Source: a virus
IMG/VR virus record: IMGVR_UViG_3300043397_000007
Location: 1-23,554 of that record
Direction: 5' to 3' (one strand)
DNA: 23,554 nucleotides
The position numbers and the translations under genes are program-made. Numbering within the stretch: position 1 is the first letter of the stretch; every line of letters starts with the position of its first letter. Below, piece by piece: positions 2,989 through 22,478 of the stretch. The notes beneath the pieces are model-generated. The model was not told the origin of the DNA. It made no database searches and saw only the letters and a list, made by a program, of their open reading frames with translations.

Positions 2989-3009
2989 TACTAAATTGGA
3001 GTGAATATC

Positions 3010-3261
3010 TTGCAGAAGCGTACTCGTAGCATTTTAGACGAACTTGCAAGCATGCCTGTTGCCAAAGATCAGGCTAGCTTAGTCGAAAGTCGTGCAACCC
3101 ATGTTATTCAAGGTGCTATCAACTTGATAAATTTTATCAAGGAAAATTACGATGCTGAAACCAGTGCTGAATTAGAGCGCCGCCTCTTAAACAGCATTAG
3201 AGCACAAGATCCTGCTAAATTCACTCGAGGAATCAGGAGACAACGTAGTAATGAAAATTGA
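3010..3261 (+). CDS. Conserved-looking small protein of unknown function
   Basis: An 83-residue, mostly helical, charged protein (RTRSILDELASM ... ERRLLNSIRAQDP ... RGIRRQRSNEN). No enzymatic motif or membrane segment is visible. I place the start at TTG 3010, because TTGGAG at 2996-3001 is then a Shine-Dalgarno sequence at normal spacing; the alternative GTG at 3001 would overlap that ribosome site. The 3' end overlaps the next gene by 11 bases, suggesting coupled translation with the large LysM protein. I do not recognise a function; a small scaffold-like or structural accessory role would fit the neighbours but is only inference. Confidence 0.6.
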   Translation: MQKRTRSILDELASMPVAKDQASLVESRATHVIQGAINLINFIKENYDAETSAELERRLLNSIRAQDPAKFTRGIRRQRSNEN

Positions 3262-5680
3262 TAGCATTTTAACCGAAAGCGTTTTAGTAAAACAACGCAT
3301 TCTTGAAGATAACACATACAAACAATTCTATAAATTGGGCCTTGCACTTAATGAAGCTGCATTAACTCAATCACAGATTAAACAAGTTTTCCAAGCTGTT
3401 GCAGACGGTGCAGCAGGTGGAGCAAACGTTAAGCAAGCTGGTGATGATCCAGTTAGCAATAGAACTATTTTAGGCAAAGGCGCTGACATTGGCGCTAAAG
3501 TCGCGGATGCGTTTAACGGATTAAAAACAGCTATTAGTCAAAGCGGCCCAGTTAGCGGCCTAGACGTAATGTTTGACAAGCTACAAACACAGATTCTTAA
3601 AGCATCTGGTGGTCAACGTGGTAAAGTTGGACAAGCATTACAATGGTACCGTGAACTTAGCAAAGTTCCTGGCATGCAAATGGCAGTTAAAACTATCATC
3701 TTAGGCCTAGCAGGTTTAAGTGGAGCAGGCCTAGGTGGAGCTGCATTGGTTGCAGGTATCGCTACTATTGACAAAATGCTACAAGGTGACAAGTTAAGCA
3801 GCAGCATTTGGTCTGGCGTTAAAGCAGGTGCAGCAACAGCAGCAGTTGGAGCCGCAGGAAAAGCAATGCAAGGTGGTGCCGGTGCAGGTATGCCAGAGCA
3901 CCCAAGTGCTGCAAGCGATTATGGTATGAATACATACGAGCCCGATGCTGCTGGCCAATTAGATATTCCGGCAGCAGATGCCGCAACAAACGCACAAGCT
4001 GATATACAGGCTGCACAAGATTGGTTAAATGCAGACGAAGCAGGAAGAGCTCAAATTGAGCAAACCACTGGTATGCCAGCAGCTCAATTGCAGGATATTG
4101 CAGTTGGTAATAATCTACAACCAGGTGGCACAGTACCAGACACTGTGGCACCAGCTGATAGCTTAGGTGCAGGCGAAGAAGTTGTGGGTGCAACAGATGA
4201 GTTAGGATCTTACACTGTTACTAAAGGTGACACCTTAGGAGCCATTGCACAAGCCAATGGAGTAAGTGTTGAAGACCTTAAGGGCATGAATCCACACATT
4301 GATTTTTCTAAGCCACTACAACCTGGCATGAATTTAACATTGCCACCGGCAGGTGATAACGCAGGTTCAGTATGGCAAGGTTACACAGGCAACACATTTG
4401 GCGACAAAACTGCCATGCCACAGGCACAAGCAGATACACTAAGTGGTCGTGCCGATAACTTGGCAAACATGCAAGCGCCAGCAGAGCCGGCAGCACCTGC
4501 AGAAGAACCACAATACACACCTCGTATTCCGCCAAATGTTGACGTTAACAGCTTTAGCAACTATGTGCCAACTGGTAACCCATATGTTGATCACTTAAAC
4601 AAACTTAAGGCTCAGGGTATTAATATTCGTGAGTCAATGATCGACAAGTATGCAACCACTCGCATGTGGGCCCTAAACGAAGCAATGGGCAAGCCTAGTC
4701 GAACTGTTCAGCTAACTGACTTAGGTCGTAAAGCAATTTTCTCAGCAGTTTGCGAGGCATCTGCACTAAGCAACCTTAAGAAGTTTAACAAGACGGCAGC
4801 TAAAGCAGTAGGCAAAGTTACACAACCAATTGGCAAAGCAGCAGCCGCAGGTTGGGACAGTGCAACCAACAACATCACCTACGATAAGTTGGATATGAAC
4901 TGGCGCCGTGGAACTAATTTGGCTACCTCTAAGTCTGTGGACAGTGGCGAAGTTATTAAATTCTTGCAAGACCAAGGACTACAAGAGCCACTAATTAAAG
5001 CAGCGTTTGAACATTTGGGTATTCCTTTTGAACCAAATCGTGCAGGCACAACACAAGCAAAGGGCGGGTTCTGGCAAAGTCTATTAAAAGGCGCAGGGGC
5101 TAACCAAGCTGCTCAAGCAGTATCAGACTACTCAGATACAGACACAGGCGGTATGGTTGCACGTGATACTCCTGCTCCAGCAGCAGCACCTGCGGCAGCA
5201 CCGGCACCAACAGTTGCAAGTACCAGCAGACAGCAACGTACTGCTCCTACTCCTGCACAAATGGCAGCAGCCAAGACTAGCACAGCAGCACCGAAAACTG
5301 AACCAATTAAAATTGGCGGTCAAACATTGGATCCAAACAATCCAGCTGATGCCAAAATTATTGCACAAGTACAAAAGCAACAAACAGCACCAAAAGCTGC
5401 ACCGGCAGCTCAACCATCTGCATCGACAACAAATCCATCAAGTAGTACAATACCTAATGTAAATTACGGATTGAGAAACTTGCCGCAGGCAGCACCAAAA
5501 GCTGCACCTGCACCAGCAGCAAACTTCTCAAGAGGCCAACAAACCGTTGCACCGTCAAAGGTAAACTACAATATGCCAGCTAAAGCACCTGCCAAAGCCC
5601 CAGCCAAAGTAGCCGCTCCGGTTGCTGAAAGCATTGACTTAGCAGAAGTTTTGTGGCGCAAGATGAAATCTAAGAGATGA
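3251..5680 (+). CDS. Large Ala/Pro-rich LysM-domain protein, probable virion protein
   Basis: An 809-residue protein. Residues 1-30 are a charged helical start (MKIDSILTES...). Residues about 144-173 form a hydrophobic Gly/Ala/Leu/Ile segment that could insert into a membrane. Residues about 319-366 are a LysM domain (GSYTVTKGDTLGAIAQ ... LQPGMNLTLP), the fold that binds peptidoglycan sugars. Residues about 640-790 are low-complexity Pro/Ala/Gln, and the C-terminus is the charged helix SIDLAEVLWRKMKSKR. A LysM domain with a hydrophobic stretch and disordered linkers suggests a virion protein that meets the cell wall, perhaps ejected with DNA. That role is inference; the LysM call is strong. 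Its stop overlaps the next ATG (ATGA), so it is translationally coupled to the nucleotidyltransferase fusion. Confidence 0.75.
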   Translation: MKIDSILTESVLVKQRILEDNTYKQFYKLGLALNEAALTQSQIKQVFQAVADGAAGGANVKQAGDDPVSNRTILGKGADIGAKVADAFNGLKTAISQSGPVSGLDVMFDKLQTQILKASGGQRGKVGQALQWYRELSKVPGMQMAVKTIILGLAGLSGAGLGGAALVAGIATIDKMLQGDKLSSSIWSGVKAGAATAAVGAAGKAMQGGAGAGMPEHPSAASDYGMNTYEPDAAGQLDIPAADAATNAQADIQAAQDWLNADEAGRAQIEQTTGMPAAQLQDIAVGNNLQPGGTVPDTVAPADSLGAGEEVVGATDELGSYTVTKGDTLGAIAQANGVSVEDLKGMNPHIDFSKPLQPGMNLTLPPAGDNAGSVWQGYTGNTFGDKTAMPQAQADTLSGRADNLANMQAPAEPAAPAEEPQYTPRIPPNVDVNSFSNYVPTGNPYVDHLNKLKAQGINIRESMIDKYATTRMWALNEAMGKPSRTVQLTDLGRKAIFSAVCEASALSNLKKFNKTAAKAVGKVTQPIGKAAAAGWDSATNNITYDKLDMNWRRGTNLATSKSVDSGEVIKFLQDQGLQEPLIKAAFEHLGIPFEPNRAGTTQAKGGFWQSLLKGAGANQAAQAVSDYSDTDTGGMVARDTPAPAAAPAAAPAPTVASTSRQQRTAPTPAQMAAAKTSTAAPKTEPIKIGGQTLDPNNPADAKIIAQVQKQQTAPKAAPAAQPSASTTNPSSSTIPNVNYGLRNLPQAAPKAAPAPAANFSRGQQTVAPSKVNYNMPAKAPAKAPAKVAAPVAESIDLAEVLWRKMKSKR

Positions 5681-7554
5681 GCCAGACTAGCACAGGCAAT
5701 GGAGCAATAAAGAATGCAACACCGATAGCACGTAATGATGTGCCCGGTGTTGTTTCTGTGATCAAAAAAGCGTTACCAGAAGAGTTACTATCCAATTTAC
5801 AAATGGACATTGGTAGTGCCGGGTTCAAAGATGAATCAGGCGACATTGACTTAATGGTTGACTCTTTTGACGTTATTGAGTATTTCCAAGCCAACAACTC
5901 ACAGGATGCAAAGAAAGAACTTCAAAAGTATCTTGAGCAACGTGGGTATAAAGCTGTAACCAAAGGGCGTAATGTTCACGTAGGCGTACCTTACAAAGAT
6001 CAAAGCGGTGACTCAAAGCTAGCACAAGTTGACATTATGGTCATCGACGATGCGGCATCTGTTGCTCCGTGGCATCAACATGGACCACGTGGCATGTATG
6101 CACAGCCCGGCTTTAAAGGCAGCAGCAACTTTATTCTAATGAGCAGTATTGCCAAACACATGGGACTAAAGTTTGATGCATTTGGTGGCAAATTAATTGA
6201 CCGCAACACAGAAGAAGTTGTGGGAAAGTCACGCAGACAAGTTGCTAAAATCCTACTAGGCCCCAAGGCCAAAGAAAAAGATTTAGACAGCGTTAGCTCT
6301 ATTATGGCTAGACTTGCAGATGATCCAGATCGCGAAGGCAAACTAGCACAAGCTAGACAAGATGCACAAGCAGGATTACTGGAACTTCCAGAAGATATTT
6401 ACCCAGGCACAAAGACTTGGCTAAACCAAATGGAAGAAAGCCCTAAGTTTGCCTTTGTTAAGTCGTTAAAAGAAAATCACGATACCACAGGACGTACACC
6501 ACACCCTGAGGACAGTATCTTTGATGGCAGCAATGCAGCAGCATTGGCATTACAGTCCCTTGGTGGCGTAATTGCAAACCCATCTAAAGTAACAGTGAAA
6601 TGGGACGGGTTTCCTGCACTTATCTTTGGGCGTACCCCAGAAGGTAAGCTGGCTATCATGGACAAGTACATGTTTGATAAGCGTATACTTGCAACTAGTC
6701 CACAAGACTGGCAACAGTACGATTCCACTAAGCCTAGCGGAACAATGCGTCCTGATTTGTACACTAAACTAGCAGCTATTTGGGCAGGGCTAGATGCTGT
6801 AGTTAAAGGCGAAGGGTTCTTTTGGGGCGATTTGCTGTGGGCAGGGGCATTAAATCCTGTTAAAGGTAACTACGTATTCAAGCCTAACACTGTGGAATAT
6901 CATGTTCCTGTGCAGAGCCCAATTGGACAGACAATCAAGGGCAGCAGTGGCGGCATTGTGGTCCACCAGCATTTTGGTGAACTAGGTGGCACAGCCAGCG
7001 AGTGGGATGGCAAAGGGTTAGTTACGGTACCGGGCGGCGTTACTATTATCAAACCTGGACTGGGCATTAGATTCAGTTTGCGTGACCCAGTGTCTGCAAG
7101 CAAAGCAGCGGCAGCAGCACTTGAAAAGTATGGCACAGCAGTAGATGACTTGTTTGTTAACATTCCATCTAGCACCAAAGCTCTGATTAAAACATACTTC
7201 AACAAGAAGATCACTTGCCAAACCAATCAAGACTTACATGATTGGATGAAGGGTAACGTTAGCAGTAAACAATATAACGCCCTAGTTGGCGACGACTATT
7301 CGGGCAGTTTGTTTACCACAGATGGCGAAGGACAAGTACACGAAAGCCAAGGATACGCAGGGTTAAAAGCAATTTGGAACTCAATATATGCGTACAAATT
7401 GAATCTAGTGCAGCAACTTGAGCAGCAAGTACAAGGTGTACAGCAGTCCGTTAATGGGCAAGCAGGCGGCGAAGGATTTGTATTCCCAAGCCCCAACGGG
7501 TTAATTAAACTTGTTAACAGAGGGCAGTTTAGTCGAGCTCTTTTTAACAAGTAA
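5677..7554 (+). CDS. Pol-beta-type nucleotidyltransferase fused to KWDG ligase-type nucleotidyltransferase
   Basis: A 625-residue protein with two apparent nucleotide-transfer domains. N-terminal: G46-S47 followed by D56-I-D58 (IGSAGF...GDIDLMVD), and D119 in QVDIMVI, give the GS...DxD...D signature of the Pol-beta nucleotidyltransferase superfamily. C-terminal: K308-W-D-G311 resembles motif I of DNA/RNA ligases and capping enzymes (the lysine that takes AMP/GMP); FFWGDLLW at 381-388 resembles motif III; E599-GFVF resembles motif IV; and LIK611LVNR resembles motif V, close in style to T4 RNA ligase 2 (EGxV then IKxxN). KWDG-type proteins of unknown substrate are common in marine T4-like phages as I recall; the N-terminal fusion is unusual to me. 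Substrate could be RNA ends, tRNA or a protein (AMPylation). It overlaps the LysM gene by ATGA and has no clear terminator after it. Confidence 0.72.
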   Translation: MSQTSTGNGAIKNATPIARNDVPGVVSVIKKALPEELLSNLQMDIGSAGFKDESGDIDLMVDSFDVIEYFQANNSQDAKKELQKYLEQRGYKAVTKGRNVHVGVPYKDQSGDSKLAQVDIMVIDDAASVAPWHQHGPRGMYAQPGFKGSSNFILMSSIAKHMGLKFDAFGGKLIDRNTEEVVGKSRRQVAKILLGPKAKEKDLDSVSSIMARLADDPDREGKLAQARQDAQAGLLELPEDIYPGTKTWLNQMEESPKFAFVKSLKENHDTTGRTPHPEDSIFDGSNAAALALQSLGGVIANPSKVTVKWDGFPALIFGRTPEGKLAIMDKYMFDKRILATSPQDWQQYDSTKPSGTMRPDLYTKLAAIWAGLDAVVKGEGFFWGDLLWAGALNPVKGNYVFKPNTVEYHVPVQSPIGQTIKGSSGGIVVHQHFGELGGTASEWDGKGLVTVPGGVTIIKPGLGIRFSLRDPVSASKAAAAALEKYGTAVDDLFVNIPSSTKALIKTYFNKKITCQTNQDLHDWMKGNVSSKQYNALVGDDYSGSLFTTDGEGQVHESQGYAGLKAIWNSIYAYKLNLVQQLEQQVQGVQQSVNGQAGGEGFVFPSPNGLIKLVNRGQFSRALFNK

Positions 7555-9548: not shown

Positions 9549-10050
9549 CGCTCCGCATATTAAAGAAGTTATTGCAGCAACAGAAGCCACTAGTTTATAC
9601 ATTGGCGTATGGGCAAAGCAAGAAGCAGAGCGTTTACTTAAACAAGAGCCTGTTATTATTCCGCTTAAAAACGGATACCATGTAGGCAAGTTTACCGTTA
9701 AGAATGCAAATCACACATGGCATGTGTATAATGTGTGGAATGAATTTGTAAACGCATTTAGCAGCAAGCAATCTGCTGTATCCTGGTGCATTTTAGAGCA
9801 CACTGGTAGGATTATTCAGAGCCGAAAACTCATGGATCAAGATGCGAAGGTAAGTAAGTATACGCAGGATCAAACCAATTATTTTCATTCTAGACAGCAG
9901 GCCATTAAACGTGGTGACTATTTTGCTGTTGATTTAAGCGATGCTAGGATTGCCAAAGTCCAAAGTATGCTAGAAGATGCTAAAAATGATCTTGAAAAAA
10001 CTTTAAATTCGGCTAAATATTTGAAAGGTATTTGGGAAAAACCACTATGA
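9514..10050 (+). CDS. Phage protein of unknown function
   Basis: A 178-residue protein. The first about 110 residues look like a small mixed alpha/beta domain (AKQEAERLLKQEPVIIPLKNGYHVGKFTVKN...WHVYNVW, then SAVSWCILEHTGRI). The C-terminal half is helical (DARIAKVQSMLEDAKNDLEKTLNSAKYL) with likely coiled-coil character. No catalytic motif or signal sequence was found. The gene starts inside the end of the previous gene (35-base overlap, another frame) without a clear ribosome site, implying translational coupling, and its stop overlaps the next ATG (ATGA). Placement directly before two probable virion proteins suggests a structural or assembly role, which is inference. Confidence 0.6.
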   Translation: MAKSFTKRKSVNAPHIKEVIAATEATSLYIGVWAKQEAERLLKQEPVIIPLKNGYHVGKFTVKNANHTWHVYNVWNEFVNAFSSKQSAVSWCILEHTGRIIQSRKLMDQDAKVSKYTQDQTNYFHSRQQAIKRGDYFAVDLSDARIAKVQSMLEDAKNDLEKTLNSAKYLKGIWEKPL

Positions 10051-10754
10051 AATTAAACGATATGGCACAAAAGCCTACCACAAAACAAATGAAACGAGTG
10101 ATGGAAAGCCGCTTTGGCTTCTCTGTAGATTACGAAAATCTAACACTCAAGAAGGCTTATAGTATGGCTACGTCTATTACAGAAGCCCTAAACAAAATTA
10201 AGAAAACACACGGCGCCCACGTTGCAGAACGTAACGCAAAGTACATGGAAATGTACATGGTGCGTGAAAGCATTCATAGCTGGATGCGTGAAAACCAAAA
10301 GAGCTTTATCGCTGAAAGCGAAATGGCTAAGAGTGAAGCTATCCTAGCTGCAAAAGACATGGTTGACAGCATTCAAGACATGCTTGAAAAGATTGGTAAA
10401 ATGCAGAACGAGCAATTGCCTGCATTGCTAGATACAATCCGTGACCAATTGGGCATTGAGCAAGCTGACAGCTTTAAGAACGCAGTGGCTCCGCTATTGC
10501 AAGACTTAGCTGGTACACTACAACAAGGTCGCGAAACAGCAGACAATGCTGCACGTGGCTTGGCAGGTGAACAAGTTGAGCAGCCAATGGGCATGGGCGG
10601 TGGCGCACCAGGAATGGGCGGCATGGGCGACTTAGGTGGCGACATGGGCGGTCCAGCTGATCTAGGTGAGCCAAGCGACCTAGATATGGGCGACTTTGCT
10701 GCTACTGATGCTGCTGCTGGCGGTTCTGCTGAACTAGGTAGAGAGCGTAGATAA
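10047..10754 (+). CDS. Probable virion or assembly protein with Gly/Met-rich tail
   Basis: A 235-residue protein. Residues 1-150 are strongly helical and well ordered in appearance (KQMKRVMESRFGFSVDYENL ... MVDSIQDMLEKIGKMQNEQLPALLDTIRD). The last about 55 residues are a low-complexity Gly/Met/Asp tail (MGMGGGAPGMGGMGDLGG...). I start at ATG 10047, which overlaps the preceding stop as ATGA; an in-frame TTG lies 15 bases upstream but has no advantage. The next gene overlaps by TAATG. As I recall, proteins with this helical body occur in marine T4-like phage structural lists; I treat the virion assignment as inferred. Alternative: a scaffold-type protein given the helical body and flexible acidic tail. 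Confidence 0.62.
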   Translation: MKLNDMAQKPTTKQMKRVMESRFGFSVDYENLTLKKAYSMATSITEALNKIKKTHGAHVAERNAKYMEMYMVRESIHSWMRENQKSFIAESEMAKSEAILAAKDMVDSIQDMLEKIGKMQNEQLPALLDTIRDQLGIEQADSFKNAVAPLLQDLAGTLQQGRETADNAARGLAGEQVEQPMGMGGGAPGMGGMGDLGGDMGGPADLGEPSDLDMGDFAATDAAAGGSAELGRERR

Positions 10755-11197
10755 TGCGTTTTAGCGAATTTGTCACAGAAAGCAGTGGCCTCGGGGAAAT
10801 GATTGAGGACGAAGCCGAATCACGCGGCGACAGCGTCCTCTTAACTGCCCTCGAAGAACTACGCAATAGAGCTCACGGACACTCAGTTCCGCGAGTTCGT
10901 GTTGACGCTTTAGTGAACTTAATCAAGCGTTTGCCAGGTGGCGAAATGTTTAACGCAGAAGCATTGGAAAACGCTCGCAAGAGTAACGAAGCTGTTAAGA
11001 ATTTAATTGCAGACATTAAAGACGACGAAGTACACGACCCAAGCGTTGGCGGCACTTCAATTGTTAAGTACGTTTACCTAACTCCATTTGATGATGATCC
11101 ATTCTCAAGTGAAGGCGACGGTGGTACTAAAGCTGGTCAAACTGCACCGGAAAAAACTGTTTCTGGTATGGCTAGCAGAGCACTCGGCAAACGATAA
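10754..11197 (+). CDS. Probable virion-associated small protein
   Basis: A 147-residue acidic protein beginning MRFSEFVTES, a start very like MKIDSILTES of the large LysM protein at 3251. The middle is helical (VLLTALEELRNRAHG, RVDALVNLIKRLPGGEMFNAE), followed by a predicted beta stretch (GGTSIVKYVYLTPFDDDPF) and a disordered tail. No enzymatic motif is visible. It starts on the last base of the upstream stop (TAATG), so the pair is coupled. It ends 3 bases before a long inverted repeat. The role is not recognised; gene context and the shared N-terminal start suggest it is a virion or assembly partner. Confidence 0.6.
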   Translation: MRFSEFVTESSGLGEMIEDEAESRGDSVLLTALEELRNRAHGHSVPRVRVDALVNLIKRLPGGEMFNAEALENARKSNEAVKNLIADIKDDEVHDPSVGGTSIVKYVYLTPFDDDPFSSEGDGGTKAGQTAPEKTVSGMASRALGKR

Positions 11198-11200
11198 ATT

Positions 11201-11239
11201 ATATCATACTTGTAGTTTTGATAATTACAAGTATGATAT
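11201..11239 (+). repeat. Perfect 14-bp inverted repeat covering the next gene's start codon
   Basis: ATATCATACTTGTA (11201-11214) and TACAAGTATGATAT (11226-11239) are exact reverse complements separated by 11 bases. The ATG at 11233 lies inside the right arm. As RNA this hairpin would hide the start codon; as DNA it could be an operator. No T tract follows, so it is not a standard terminator. Confidence 0.75.
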
Positions 11240-12315
11240 TAGTTTACAGCGACAGCCAAATCATTGATAATGAGTGGCTACCCCACATAAGTTTTAAAAC
11301 CCCCTACACACTTTCTCACAGCATTGATGAGTTTGAAGCAGCAGAAGCCACGCTAAAGGTTGCATTCACTACACATCGACTGCACTGTGATTTTGACACT
11401 GCGTACATTGGGTTTGAAGATAAAATCAACCGTTTAAGTTATATAAGTGACTTGGTGTTTACTTTTGAAAGTGAACTCCATAACTTCCATTGGCAAATTT
11501 GGGAAAAGTGTCACCACGATAATGTGTACTGGTTATTACCCGGTGCAGTAAATGATCGTGATGATATTAACAGTCACATTATTTGCTGGGGCGATTGGTT
11601 TAAGACTACAGCCAACATTTACAAAGCCTTGCCGGATAAGGTACTACACATTAACCCATATGCAACCAAGCCCAAGTACTTTGATGCCTTACTAGGCAGT
11701 CCAAAGCCGCATAGAGACTTTGTGTTCAATGCAGTTAACGCAAACGATCTTAACCATAAGTTTATTATGACCTACGGCGGAGATTGGAAAGAAGGCGAAT
11801 TCTATGCCAAGGATTACTTTATTTGGGAAGAAGGCACTACGCCAATTGGGCAGACAATTGGCACAGCAGACTGGGCCGACTACTGTGGGCAACGTGTGCA
11901 TCTAAGTCAAATCATTCCAATTAAGGTAATGAATGATAGTGCTTACACTATTATTGCTGAAACAGACTTTGATAATACCCTAAGTTGCTTTACAGAAAAA
12001 ACAGCCAAGCCAATGATTGCACGTCGACTGTTTATTGCGTTTACTGGATACAAGTTTTTGCACAATTTACGTGCATTGGGATTCCAGACATTTGATGGAA
12101 TCATTGATGAAAGCTATGACTTAGAAATTGATGATAACAAACGATATGCAATGGCGTTTGAACAAGTCAAATATTTGTGTGAACAAGAACAAGATGTGAT
12201 CTACCGCAAGATTAAACCTATTGTAGACCACAACTATAATTTACTAATGACTCGAGACTGGACGCAATGGCCAGCAAAGCAAATCGAGCAAGTTATTAAC
12301 TCTTTATCTGTTTAG
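11233..12315 (+). CDS. Glycosyltransferase-like protein
   Basis: A 360-residue protein. The C-terminal half carries the pattern seen in nucleotide-sugar-using transferases of the GT10/fucosyltransferase-like sort: an 'E' element, then FTEK at 253-256 (typical 'sEK' loop), a hydrophobic RRLFIAFTGYKFL segment, and LRALGFQTFDGIIDESYD at about 279-296 followed by a charged helix. Similar 'EK...lGF.tF...iDEsYD' proteins occur in aquatic T4-like phages. The expected action is transfer of a sugar onto a phage or host glycan. I choose ATG 11233 over an in-frame TTG at 11218. The start codon sits in a hairpin arm and lacks a Shine-Dalgarno sequence. Its 3' end overlaps the convergent SGNH-hydrolase gene by 20 bases. 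The family call is moderate; donor and acceptor are unknown. Confidence 0.55.
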   Translation: MILVYSDSQIIDNEWLPHISFKTPYTLSHSIDEFEAAEATLKVAFTTHRLHCDFDTAYIGFEDKINRLSYISDLVFTFESELHNFHWQIWEKCHHDNVYWLLPGAVNDRDDINSHIICWGDWFKTTANIYKALPDKVLHINPYATKPKYFDALLGSPKPHRDFVFNAVNANDLNHKFIMTYGGDWKEGEFYAKDYFIWEEGTTPIGQTIGTADWADYCGQRVHLSQIIPIKVMNDSAYTIIAETDFDNTLSCFTEKTAKPMIARRLFIAFTGYKFLHNLRALGFQTFDGIIDESYDLEIDDNKRYAMAFEQVKYLCEQEQDVIYRKIKPIVDHNYNLLMTRDWTQWPAKQIEQVINSLSV

Positions 12316-13045
12316 TAACATATTCTGCCCAGGCTTTGTGTGCATTATGTCCTGGGTGGAATCCATCTTCCATAAAATCATTCATGCTCTTGGCCATTTC
12401 ATAAAGGCCATTACGTTCAGCATCAGTGAATATCCACGTGTCTAGTTCTAACTCTCTGATTAATGAGTGCAGTCCGGACATGGCTGTTACACCAAAGTCA
12501 CCGTTGGGGCTAACATTCTTTTTATCATTCCAGTAGTTAACATAACTCATAAACTTGTACTTGATGCCTTTGGCTTCTAAGAAGTTTTTGAGCTTGACCA
12601 TTTCGGTGATGTTAATGGTTGCTAGGCTGTACTCGCTAGACACTTTGTACATCTCGTAGAACATCTTGTGTGCAACAGGGTTCTTAAACCACGTGCCCAT
12701 TTGCCCGCCACTAAAAATGTAACCTAACTTGTTGTCTGGTAATCTACGATAGAATCCGTAGCTGTCAAATAGTTCATTCCATGCTGGATCGGTGATATCT
12801 GTTAGGTAATCTAGTCGGCTTACTCCACTCCACATTACTAGAACTTGATCGTACTTGCCAGGATTATCAAGTACTTCTCGAATAATACTATCTGCAATGT
12901 ATTGGTTACCAGCTGCTGCTTCTGCTAGGTTGGTAATCTCATCGTTGGGGTTCATCTCACTAAAGTATCTTGGCCAACATACATTGGGACCGCCGGGGAA
13001 ATCGGGCCATTGACTAAAACTACATCCGGATATTAGAATTTTCAT
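12296..13045 (-). CDS. SGNH/GDSL-type hydrolase-like protein
   Basis: A 249-residue protein and the only minus-strand gene here. The SGNH family blocks can be followed: GCSFS at 7-11 (block I, likely nucleophile S9), NLAEAAAGN at 39-47 (block II Gly-Asn), VLVMWSGVSR at 68-77 (block III position, GxxR rather than GxND), and D227-GFH230-PG (block V Asp-His). Such enzymes hydrolyse or transfer acyl/acetyl esters, often on polysaccharides. No signal peptide is seen, so it acts in the cytoplasm or on virion parts. I start at ATG 13045; the TTG just before it is less likely. A late-type box on the minus strand ends 5 bases before the ATG. Lying convergent to a glycosyltransferase-like gene, it may modify the same glycan; that link is inference. 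Confidence 0.7.
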   Translation of the reverse strand: MKILISGCSFSQWPDFPGGPNVCWPRYFSEMNPNDEITNLAEAAAGNQYIADSIIREVLDNPGKYDQVLVMWSGVSRLDYLTDITDPAWNELFDSYGFYRRLPDNKLGYIFSGGQMGTWFKNPVAHKMFYEMYKVSSEYSLATINITEMVKLKNFLEAKGIKYKFMSYVNYWNDKKNVSPNGDFGVTAMSGLHSLIRELELDTWIFTDAERNGLYEMAKSMNDFMEDGFHPGHNAHKAWAEYVTKQIKS

Positions 13046-13050
13046 CAAAA

Positions 13051-21902: not shown

Positions 21903-22478
21903 ATGACAACAAAAAAGTCAAACGGTAATCCAATTTTTTGGTTTACTCTTTCTAGAAATGTTATCCAATTTCTAGCATTCATGTTAGTGATGTCACTGTT
22001 ATGGTCAGTGACTCAAACAAAACTAGCAACCCTTGAGGAAGGCAGTGACGTCTACCGCCAAGGTTTTATCAGTGCGGAAGATCGCACCAAGCAACTTGAT
22101 TGCTTAACAAAAAACATTTACAATGAAGCAGCCACCGAACCTTTTGAAGGTAAAGTTGCTGTCGCCCAAGTAACAATGAACCGTGTGGATAGTGGTAAGT
22201 TTGGCAAAGGCGTGTGCGGAGTTGTTTATCAACGGAACGTGATATATGAAAAAGTCATTTGCCAGTTTAGCTGGGCGTGTATGCCAAGTGTTGCTAAGAA
22301 AGCAGTTTACCCTGCACTCTATAAAGAAAGCGAAGAAGTCGCTAAGAAGGTTCTACTAGAAAACTTCCGTCTACCAAGCATGAAAGAGGCAATGTACTAT
22401 CATGCAGACTACGTCAACCCAAAATGGGGTAAGCCAAAAATTACACAGATTGGTCACCACATTTTCTACAAGGACTAA
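21903..22478 (+). CDS. Membrane-anchored cell-wall hydrolase, SleB/CwlJ-like (endolysin)
   Basis: A 191-residue probable endolysin. An N-terminal hydrophobic helix at about residues 21-36 (IQFLAFMLVMSLLWSV) follows positive residues, fitting a signal-anchor. The Hydrolase_2 (SleB/CwlJ) catalytic domain is recognisable by LTKNIYNEA (likely catalytic E75), then GKVAVAQVTMNRVDSGKF, VCGVVYQ, and CQFSWACM. These enzymes cleave peptidoglycan glycan strands. A membrane-tethered hydrolase is expected to be released or activated at lysis, as for signal-anchor-release endolysins; that mechanism is inferred. AGGAG is spaced 5 bases before the ATG. It is followed by a multi-span membrane protein one base after its stop, so the lysis pair is co-expressed. 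Confidence 0.82.
   Translation: MTTKKSNGNPIFWFTLSRNVIQFLAFMLVMSLLWSVTQTKLATLEEGSDVYRQGFISAEDRTKQLDCLTKNIYNEAATEPFEGKVAVAQVTMNRVDSGKFGKGVCGVVYQRNVIYEKVICQFSWACMPSVAKKAVYPALYKESEEVAKKVLLENFRLPSMKEAMYYHADYVNPKWGKPKITQIGHHIFYKD

Follow-up and report, generated by a model that had tools for sequence, protein, structure and literature searches.

The 23,554-nucleotide viral stretch analysed here (the window; positions 1 to 23,554 of IMG/VR record IMGVR_UViG_3300043397_000007) carries a giant-phage gene for a protein that joins a polymerase-X-like nucleotidyltransferase (NTase) to a predicted ligase-like domain of the family DUF6267, which carries a KWDG motif. This fused gene is the exception: in most relatives the two parts are encoded by two adjacent genes. 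Since most relatives carry T4-type head-loading tags, the gene probably specifies a repair or modification kit that is injected with the viral DNA. We tentatively propose, with slightly less than even confidence, that the protein is a fused two-enzyme module, packaged in the virion and injected, in which the Pol-X-like half would add nucleotides and the DUF6267 half would seal; catalysis, substrate and packaging are here what we infer.

The fused gene and its surroundings

The protein of 625 amino acids is read in a single frame (ORF 5677-7554), and its ATG is part of the ATGA that closes the gene for an upstream LysM protein. The features of the locus and of the protein are as follows.

3001..3261, plus strand: small virion structural protein family (phrog_11854, 1.1e-16), upstream context; most related loci have it ahead of KWDG
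3251..5680, plus strand: LysM protein of 809 aa (LysM, 2.5e-12), upstream; its start, MKIDSILTES, matches the tag pattern
5677..7554, plus strand: fused coding sequence, NTase plus DUF6267, 625 aa, stop codon counted in; the same fusion occurs in the close relatives L001-L005
5677..6426, plus strand: polymerase-X-like nucleotidyltransferase domain, residues 1-250 (AlphaFold and Foldseek against the PDB)
5812..5850, plus strand: GS...SGDID motif, residues 46-58, with D56 and D58; G46, D56 and D58 invariant in 54/54 relatives
6031..6033, plus strand: third catalytic Asp, D119 (QVDIM), kept in 54/54
6448..6474, plus strand: FAFVKSLKE linker, residues 258-266, inferred remnant of a tagged start with a possible prohead-protease site after E266
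6475..7551, plus strand: DUF6267 (KWDG) ligase-like domain, residues 267-625 (Pfam, AlphaFold, Foldseek)
6598..6609, plus strand: KWDG, residues 308-311: motif I, in which K308 is the candidate nucleophile; K308, D310 and G311 in 90/90
6823..6840, plus strand: WGDLLW, residues 383-388, motif III; D385 in 90/90
7471..7485, plus strand: EGFVF, residues 599-603, motif IV; E599 and G600 in 90/90
7501..7521, plus strand: LIKLVNR, residues 609-615, motif V; K611 in 90/90
10032..10754, plus strand: virion structural protein family (phrog_14154, 7.2e-13), downstream neighbour in nearly all related loci
10754..11197, plus strand: conserved downstream neighbour with a tag-like start, MRFSEFVTES

The first-pass annotation, made from the sequence without database searches, had described a Pol-beta-type NTase joined to a ligase-type domain, and the motifs on which it relied all lie at the residues it gave (G46-S47, D56, D58, D119, KWDG at 308-311, WGDLLW at 383-388, EGFVF at 599-603 and LIKLVNR at 609-615). 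Comparison with three close relatives gives dN/dS of about 0.02-0.11 for both halves, although for two of these relatives dS is close to saturation.

The C-terminal end of the LysM protein (window 5620-5679) reads ESIDLAEVLWRKM, and a near-identical stretch, EGIDLADILWRKM, stands directly before the NTase in L030 (protein from 3891), where the upstream protein and the NTase form one ORF. Further along, the window holds a 365-aa ORF with no family match (11218-12315, plus strand), a 250-aa protein that faces it and has weak DUF6071/GDSL-lipase similarity (12296-13048, minus strand), and a cell wall hydrolase (21903-22478; PF07486, 5.2e-24) with a hydrophobic stretch at its N-terminus. Scanning the window for defence systems, RNA families and tRNA revealed none of these.

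A polymerase-X-like half and a ligase-like half

The NTase half, modelled alone with AlphaFold2 from an alignment of its own family, gave a model with a pLDDT of 87 in which the NTase fold is present. Its palm/thumb fold and Asp triad bear out the earlier assignment to the Pol-beta superfamily, and the enzyme can be described more exactly as polymerase-X-like and without the 8-kDa domain. All 50 matches listed by Foldseek against the PDB are Pol lambda, Pol mu or TdT, at a probability of 1.00 (best E 3.6e-7; TM about 0.40-0.49 by query length), and G46, G55, D56, D58, Q117 and D119 are invariant in 54 diverse NTase relatives, down to 25% identity. At the level of sequence, the window N-terminal half alone matches no Pfam family and Pfam DNA_pol_B_palm matches three of the 54 relatives (best 5e-4). 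PDB sequence searches with the whole protein and with profiles of both halves returned no real match, nor did a tblastn search of annotated phages with the NTase half. PF14792 matched none of the nine related contigs scanned, so structure and motifs are the basis for the Pol X assignment. Only about 40 residues lie ahead of the GS motif and the 8-kDa gap-binding/lyase domain is absent; we have therefore filed the enzyme as Pol-X-like and not as a complete Pol X. Because the positions that we take to be equivalent to Pol beta Y271, N279 and R283, which presumably serve base selection, look unconserved, the NTase may be a non-templated or RNA-acting derivative.

The C-terminal half matches DUF6267 (PF19782) over residues 276-624 at 2.8e-28, with a score of 99.8 bits against a curated cut-off of 27 and coverage of profile positions 6-373 of 376. 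Across 90/90 KWDG relatives, the most distant of them at 23% identity, there is no change at K308, D310, G311, G318, K330, D385, Y408, H430, K574, E599, G600 or K611. We take the order K, D, E, K in this family to represent ligase motifs I, III, IV and V. The ligase-type motif set recognised by the first-pass annotation is thus found in order, with K308, D385, E599 and K611 invariant throughout, and the loss of catalytic residues in homologues that would have spoken against a two-enzyme protein is seen in neither half (residues kept in 54/54 and 90/90).

This half was also modelled alone from its own family alignment (AlphaFold2; pLDDT 94). Foldseek matches in the PDB are weak and led by ligases, with human DNA ligase 1 at the top (E 0.14) and the adenylyltransferase domain of the Candida tRNA ligase also present (E 0.23). 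Among viral models outside the family, an RNA ligase from Agrobacterium phage Atu_ph07 is the best named match, at 4.5e-4 and a probability of 0.96; giant-virus RNA ligases come next, and the overall superposition is poor (TM about 0.2-0.25). Support for the ligase fold expected around K308 is weak: it comes from the ranking of ligases and the match to a viral RNA ligase, but not from the closeness of the PDB match or of the superposition; judged from these models, the DUF6267 half likely has a ligase-like fold. The C-terminus lies 14 residues past K611, a tail too short to hold an OB domain or motif VI, neither of which is found. Comparison by hhalign with T4 Rnl1, Rnl2, gp30 and 57B, and with a profile of Rnl2 relatives, gave no match, RNA_lig_T4_1 matches only one of the 90 KWDG members (E 0.0097), and the RlaP Pfam model is not among the Pfam matches of the 54 NTase relatives. 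As the sequence tests for Rnl1/Rnl2 and for RlaP failed, the protein is not filed under either.

Gene pairing, head-targeting tags and virion partners

Scans of IMG/VR yielded about 270 loci, some of which share contigs, and DUF6267 relatives were found in about 470 of the searched phage records, mostly T4-like cyanophages. DUF6267 relatives also occur in bacterial and archaeal genome records (L319-L352), nearly all metagenome-assembled, and these are probably phage contigs binned with cells.

Among 95 loci with the N-terminal domain, KWDG is a separate downstream gene on the same strand in 76 and is fused in 13, while the contig ends 0-1.1 kb later in six. The search that the first-pass annotation recommended, for the N-terminal domain attached to KWDG proteins elsewhere, is thus answered by an NTase just upstream of or fused to KWDG in 89/95 loci. 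The distance from the NTase to the start of the KWDG domain is either 27-47 bases, the genes overlapping or abutting, or 1-1.7 kb, and most of the longer gaps contain a second Pol-beta-type NTase gene, which in this set never occurs without the first (31/31 loci). This second NTase (GRPTGSSAYHEQD...YGDIDLQM...VQIDFMW), with the tag-like start MKISDIITEGGWDTT, sits between the first NTase and KWDG in L247 (L247:3808-4824) and also in L022, L027, L209, L212, L230, L266 and L271. KWDG without an NTase is common, including on contigs of 158 kb and 374 kb, in a search run without a positive control. Fusions fall in two separate places in the tree of KWDG domains, a topology indicating that the NTase-KWDG fusion arose at least twice. 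Two independent fusions, and an NTase beside or fused with KWDG wherever the contig continues, lend weight to the functional link between the two domains that had been suggested from the window alone.

In the relatives, KWDG starts such as MKTYREFLTEAEQDPR (L218), MKTYTEYLVEAAEG (L204) and MKRFVEYLAEAITDG (L221) resemble those of T4 IPII/IPIII (MKTYQEFIAEA) and Alt (MELITELFDED); in T4, such a sequence targets proteins to the capsid and the propeptides are removed by the protease gp21 (PMC5694885). The pattern (L/I/V)xE is present in the first 24 residues of 58/58 KWDG proteins and 35/36 NTases as against 160/601 other ORFs, with start codons picked by rule and with some virion proteins among the other ORFs. 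The enrichment gives Fisher p of 4e-31 for KWDG and 3e-18 for the NTase, values for which the sample is overstated, the loci being non-independent. In eight distinct relatives (L208, L221, L222, L228, L232, L241, L256 and L276) the NTase forms the C-terminal portion of a longer upstream protein, to which it is joined by (L/I)xE-GG. A T4-type prohead protease gene was found in 7 of 14 contigs tested, one of them a 354-kb contig with an NTase/KWDG pair. Carriage in the virion had been suggested from the ATGA coupling to the LysM gene; that coupling is weak evidence, but the idea itself is backed by the tags on nearly all relatives and by published proteomics in which related or adjacent proteins of other phages were detected.

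The start of the window protein, MSQTSTGNGAI, aligns with the stretch right after the presumed cleavage site of the relatives (EGGNAIP), an alignment indicating that the N-terminal tag was lost in its clade. A tag-like sequence is found instead inside the protein, where tagged KWDG starts (MILEFVEFITE-DITGR in L238) can be aligned with the linker FAFVKSLKE-NHDTTGR. Every fusion in the window clade retains FVKSL(K/N)E, the preceding residues being variable; L260, which represents the second, independent fusion event, still has both LYE-GG at the N-terminus and LME-A internally. The alignment makes it possible that the FVKSLKE linker is a processing site, and the window protein itself may be packaged and cleaved. 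An internal start at the Met of QMEESPKF, giving a free KWDG protein, is disfavoured, this Met being absent in L004 and L005.

Cyanophages show a different pairing. KWDG adjoins a cytidylyltransferase gene in 154/160 cyanophage loci from IMG/VR, five of the remainder being contig edges, and no NTase-type locus contains this gene. The cyanophage KWDG proteins examined are without a tag-like start. The cytidylyltransferases beside them mostly have a T4-like capsid-targeting start (MKKFSAFLTEAEK, MKRFLQFLSEAET; for example L034:8905-10062, L035:8200-9279 and L036-L198). The KWDG fold is also matched by two viral models named cytidyltransferase-like, one from S-PM2 (591 aa) and one from an uncultured phage (599 aa), and this suggests direct cytidylyltransferase-KWDG fusions in these two phages. 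The cytidylyltransferase is a reported virion protein in S-SM1 (PMC3037559), S-CREM2 (PMC10665884), S-SZBM1 (PMC9146016) and, as an NMNAT-like protein, in S-SCSM1 (PMC9602691); the authors of the S-CREM2 and S-SCSM1 studies note that such enzymes may contaminate purified virions (PMC10665884; PMC9602691). The S-SZBM1 virion list includes the neighbours 139 and 140, and 141 (KWDG) is not among its entries (PMC9146016).

S-CREM2 gp156 was detected in virions with 6 peptides (PMC10665884). Our analysis shows that this protein, annotated as hypothetical (L116:7013-7723), belongs to the NTases (PF01909, 21.4 bits with the cut-off at 21) and shares 37% identity with the third NTase of L230 (L230:2759-3466; PF01909). 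The S-CREM2 locus contains the virion cytidylyltransferase and this NTase, with no KWDG gene in the stretch examined. The window helicase is closest to that of the Pseudomonas jumbo phage PA5oct (46%). In the syntenic locus of this phage, gp253 contains GS...TGDIDL...QVDFM...YKGS and is annotated as structural (ESI-MS/MS), and gp256 contains KIDG...EGYVI...VKIVD and is not marked as detected in the virion. Their profile scores are weak, at 12.7 bits and 7.5 bits, when a T4 frame reached 13.3 by chance, and gp253, located through synteny and motif alone, is a probable NTase homologue. A fold match to the KWDG model (2.8e-5, probability 1.0) was obtained for a PA5oct protein of 446 aa, as long as gp256.

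Proposed role, alternatives and known systems

In our preferred reading the usual form of the module would be two adjacent genes, for a polymerase-X-like NTase and for DUF6267 as a ligase-like covalent nucleotidyltransferase. A T4-type capsid-targeting sequence would load the products into the head, the prohead protease would trim them and they would be ejected with the DNA. With metal bound at D56/D58/D119, the NTase would extend a 3' end or fill a gap, and DUF6267 would self-adenylylate on K308 and then seal. The target would be nucleic acid damaged early in infection, either tRNA cut by a host defence or nicked or gapped phage DNA, and in the window protein a prohead-protease cut at the internal FVKSLKE remnant would free the two enzymes. 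RNA is slightly favoured over DNA as the target, since an RNA ligase is the best named match among viral folds and the protein has neither of the two DNA-binding domains, 8-kDa and OB. Addition followed by sealing has precedents in the RlaP NTase of jumbo phages, which acts with RNA ligases (PMC7824862), and in the PolX-ligase fusion of PgV (PMC5537341). Counting against the reading are the weak match of the ligase fold, the missing OB domain and motif VI, the lack of sequence similarity to T4 ligases, the lost N-terminal tag of the window protein, the low profile scores in PA5oct, and the absence of the KWDG protein from the S-SZBM1 virion list and from the proteins marked as detected in PA5oct. 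A broader reading, which we regard as possible though doubtful, is that DUF6267 would be a new covalent nucleotidyltransferase family and the hub of a virion-packaged, genome-delivered repair or modification module with exchangeable partners, namely Pol-X-like NTases in one phage group and cytidylyltransferases in cyanophages, with fused forms made as a polyprotein that the prohead protease would cleave.

Proteins or tRNA can be substrates of Pol-beta-type NTases, and tag-like starts of the kind found on T4 Alt and the internal proteins would suit an injected effector that, like Alt but with nucleotide transfer replacing ADP-ribosylation, nucleotidylates a host protein or RNA and has no part in repair. 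The swap of partner for a cytidylyltransferase in cyanophages also speaks for such an effector. Nothing in the analysis points to a host target, however, and a ligase-type K/D/E/K set beside a Pol-X-like NTase is better suited to adding and sealing; we consider an effector unlikely. A similarly low probability is given to a kit for DNA only, in which the Pol-X-like half would fill, and the ligase-like half seal, gaps or breaks that the phage genome carries as it enters the cell. Replication genes surround the locus, the listed PDB matches of the N-terminal half are all family X DNA polymerases, the top PDB match of the C-terminal half is human DNA ligase 1, and there is a functional viral precedent in the PolX-ligase fusion of PgV (PMC5537341), with bacterial LigD by analogy. 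Against this stand the absence of both the 8-kDa lyase domain and the OB domain, the lack of any sequence match to DNA ligases and the RNA ligase as best named viral match. That the two enzymes merely share a locus and a packaging route, the fusion having no mechanistic meaning, would explain why KWDG occurs without an NTase on the 158-kb and 374-kb contigs and with another partner in cyanophages; we think this improbable given two separate fusion events and given that an NTase without KWDG was not seen where the contig continues.

DUF6267 is named in no paper of the literature searched. It becomes open to direct testing through its ligase-like assignment, in which the lysine is specified, together with its Pol-X-like partner and the head-targeting tags, and the module reading provides a testable role for a family present in hundreds of phages. 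If correct, some tailed phages would deliver, along with their DNA, an enzyme already made for adding and sealing; this would be a new route to outrun tRNA-cutting defence or to mend virion DNA and would help to account for the recurrence of cytidylyltransferases in cyanophage virions.

Among known systems, DUF6267 (PF19782) corresponds to T4-GC 71 of T4-like cyanophages, which has the same invariant residues as the window C-terminal half, although the cyanophage members analysed here are separate genes next to a cytidylyltransferase, with neither an NTase nor a tag-like start. The window NTase shares the palm and thumb fold, the Asp triad and SGDxD with the family X DNA polymerases Pol lambda, Pol mu and TdT, but is without their 8-kDa domain and has no significant sequence match to PDB chains. 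In the PolX-ligase of PgV (Phaeocystis globosa virus), an N-terminal Pol X is fused to a C-terminal ligase and gap repair is proven (PMC5537341); that protein has 1093 aa, a lyase domain and an NAD+-dependent LigA-type DNA ligase, whereas the window protein has 625 aa and no OB domain. The jumbo-phage RlaP is a Pol-beta NTase that acts with an RNA ligase and is predicted to restore nucleotides before sealing (PMC7824862); relative to RlaP systems, DUF6267 differs by sequence from T4 Rnl1/Rnl2. The T4 internal head proteins (IPI-III and Alt) are different enzymes and the window protein bears the tag motif internally only, but the starts of nearly all its relatives are similar to theirs, with an (L/I)xE cleavage site.
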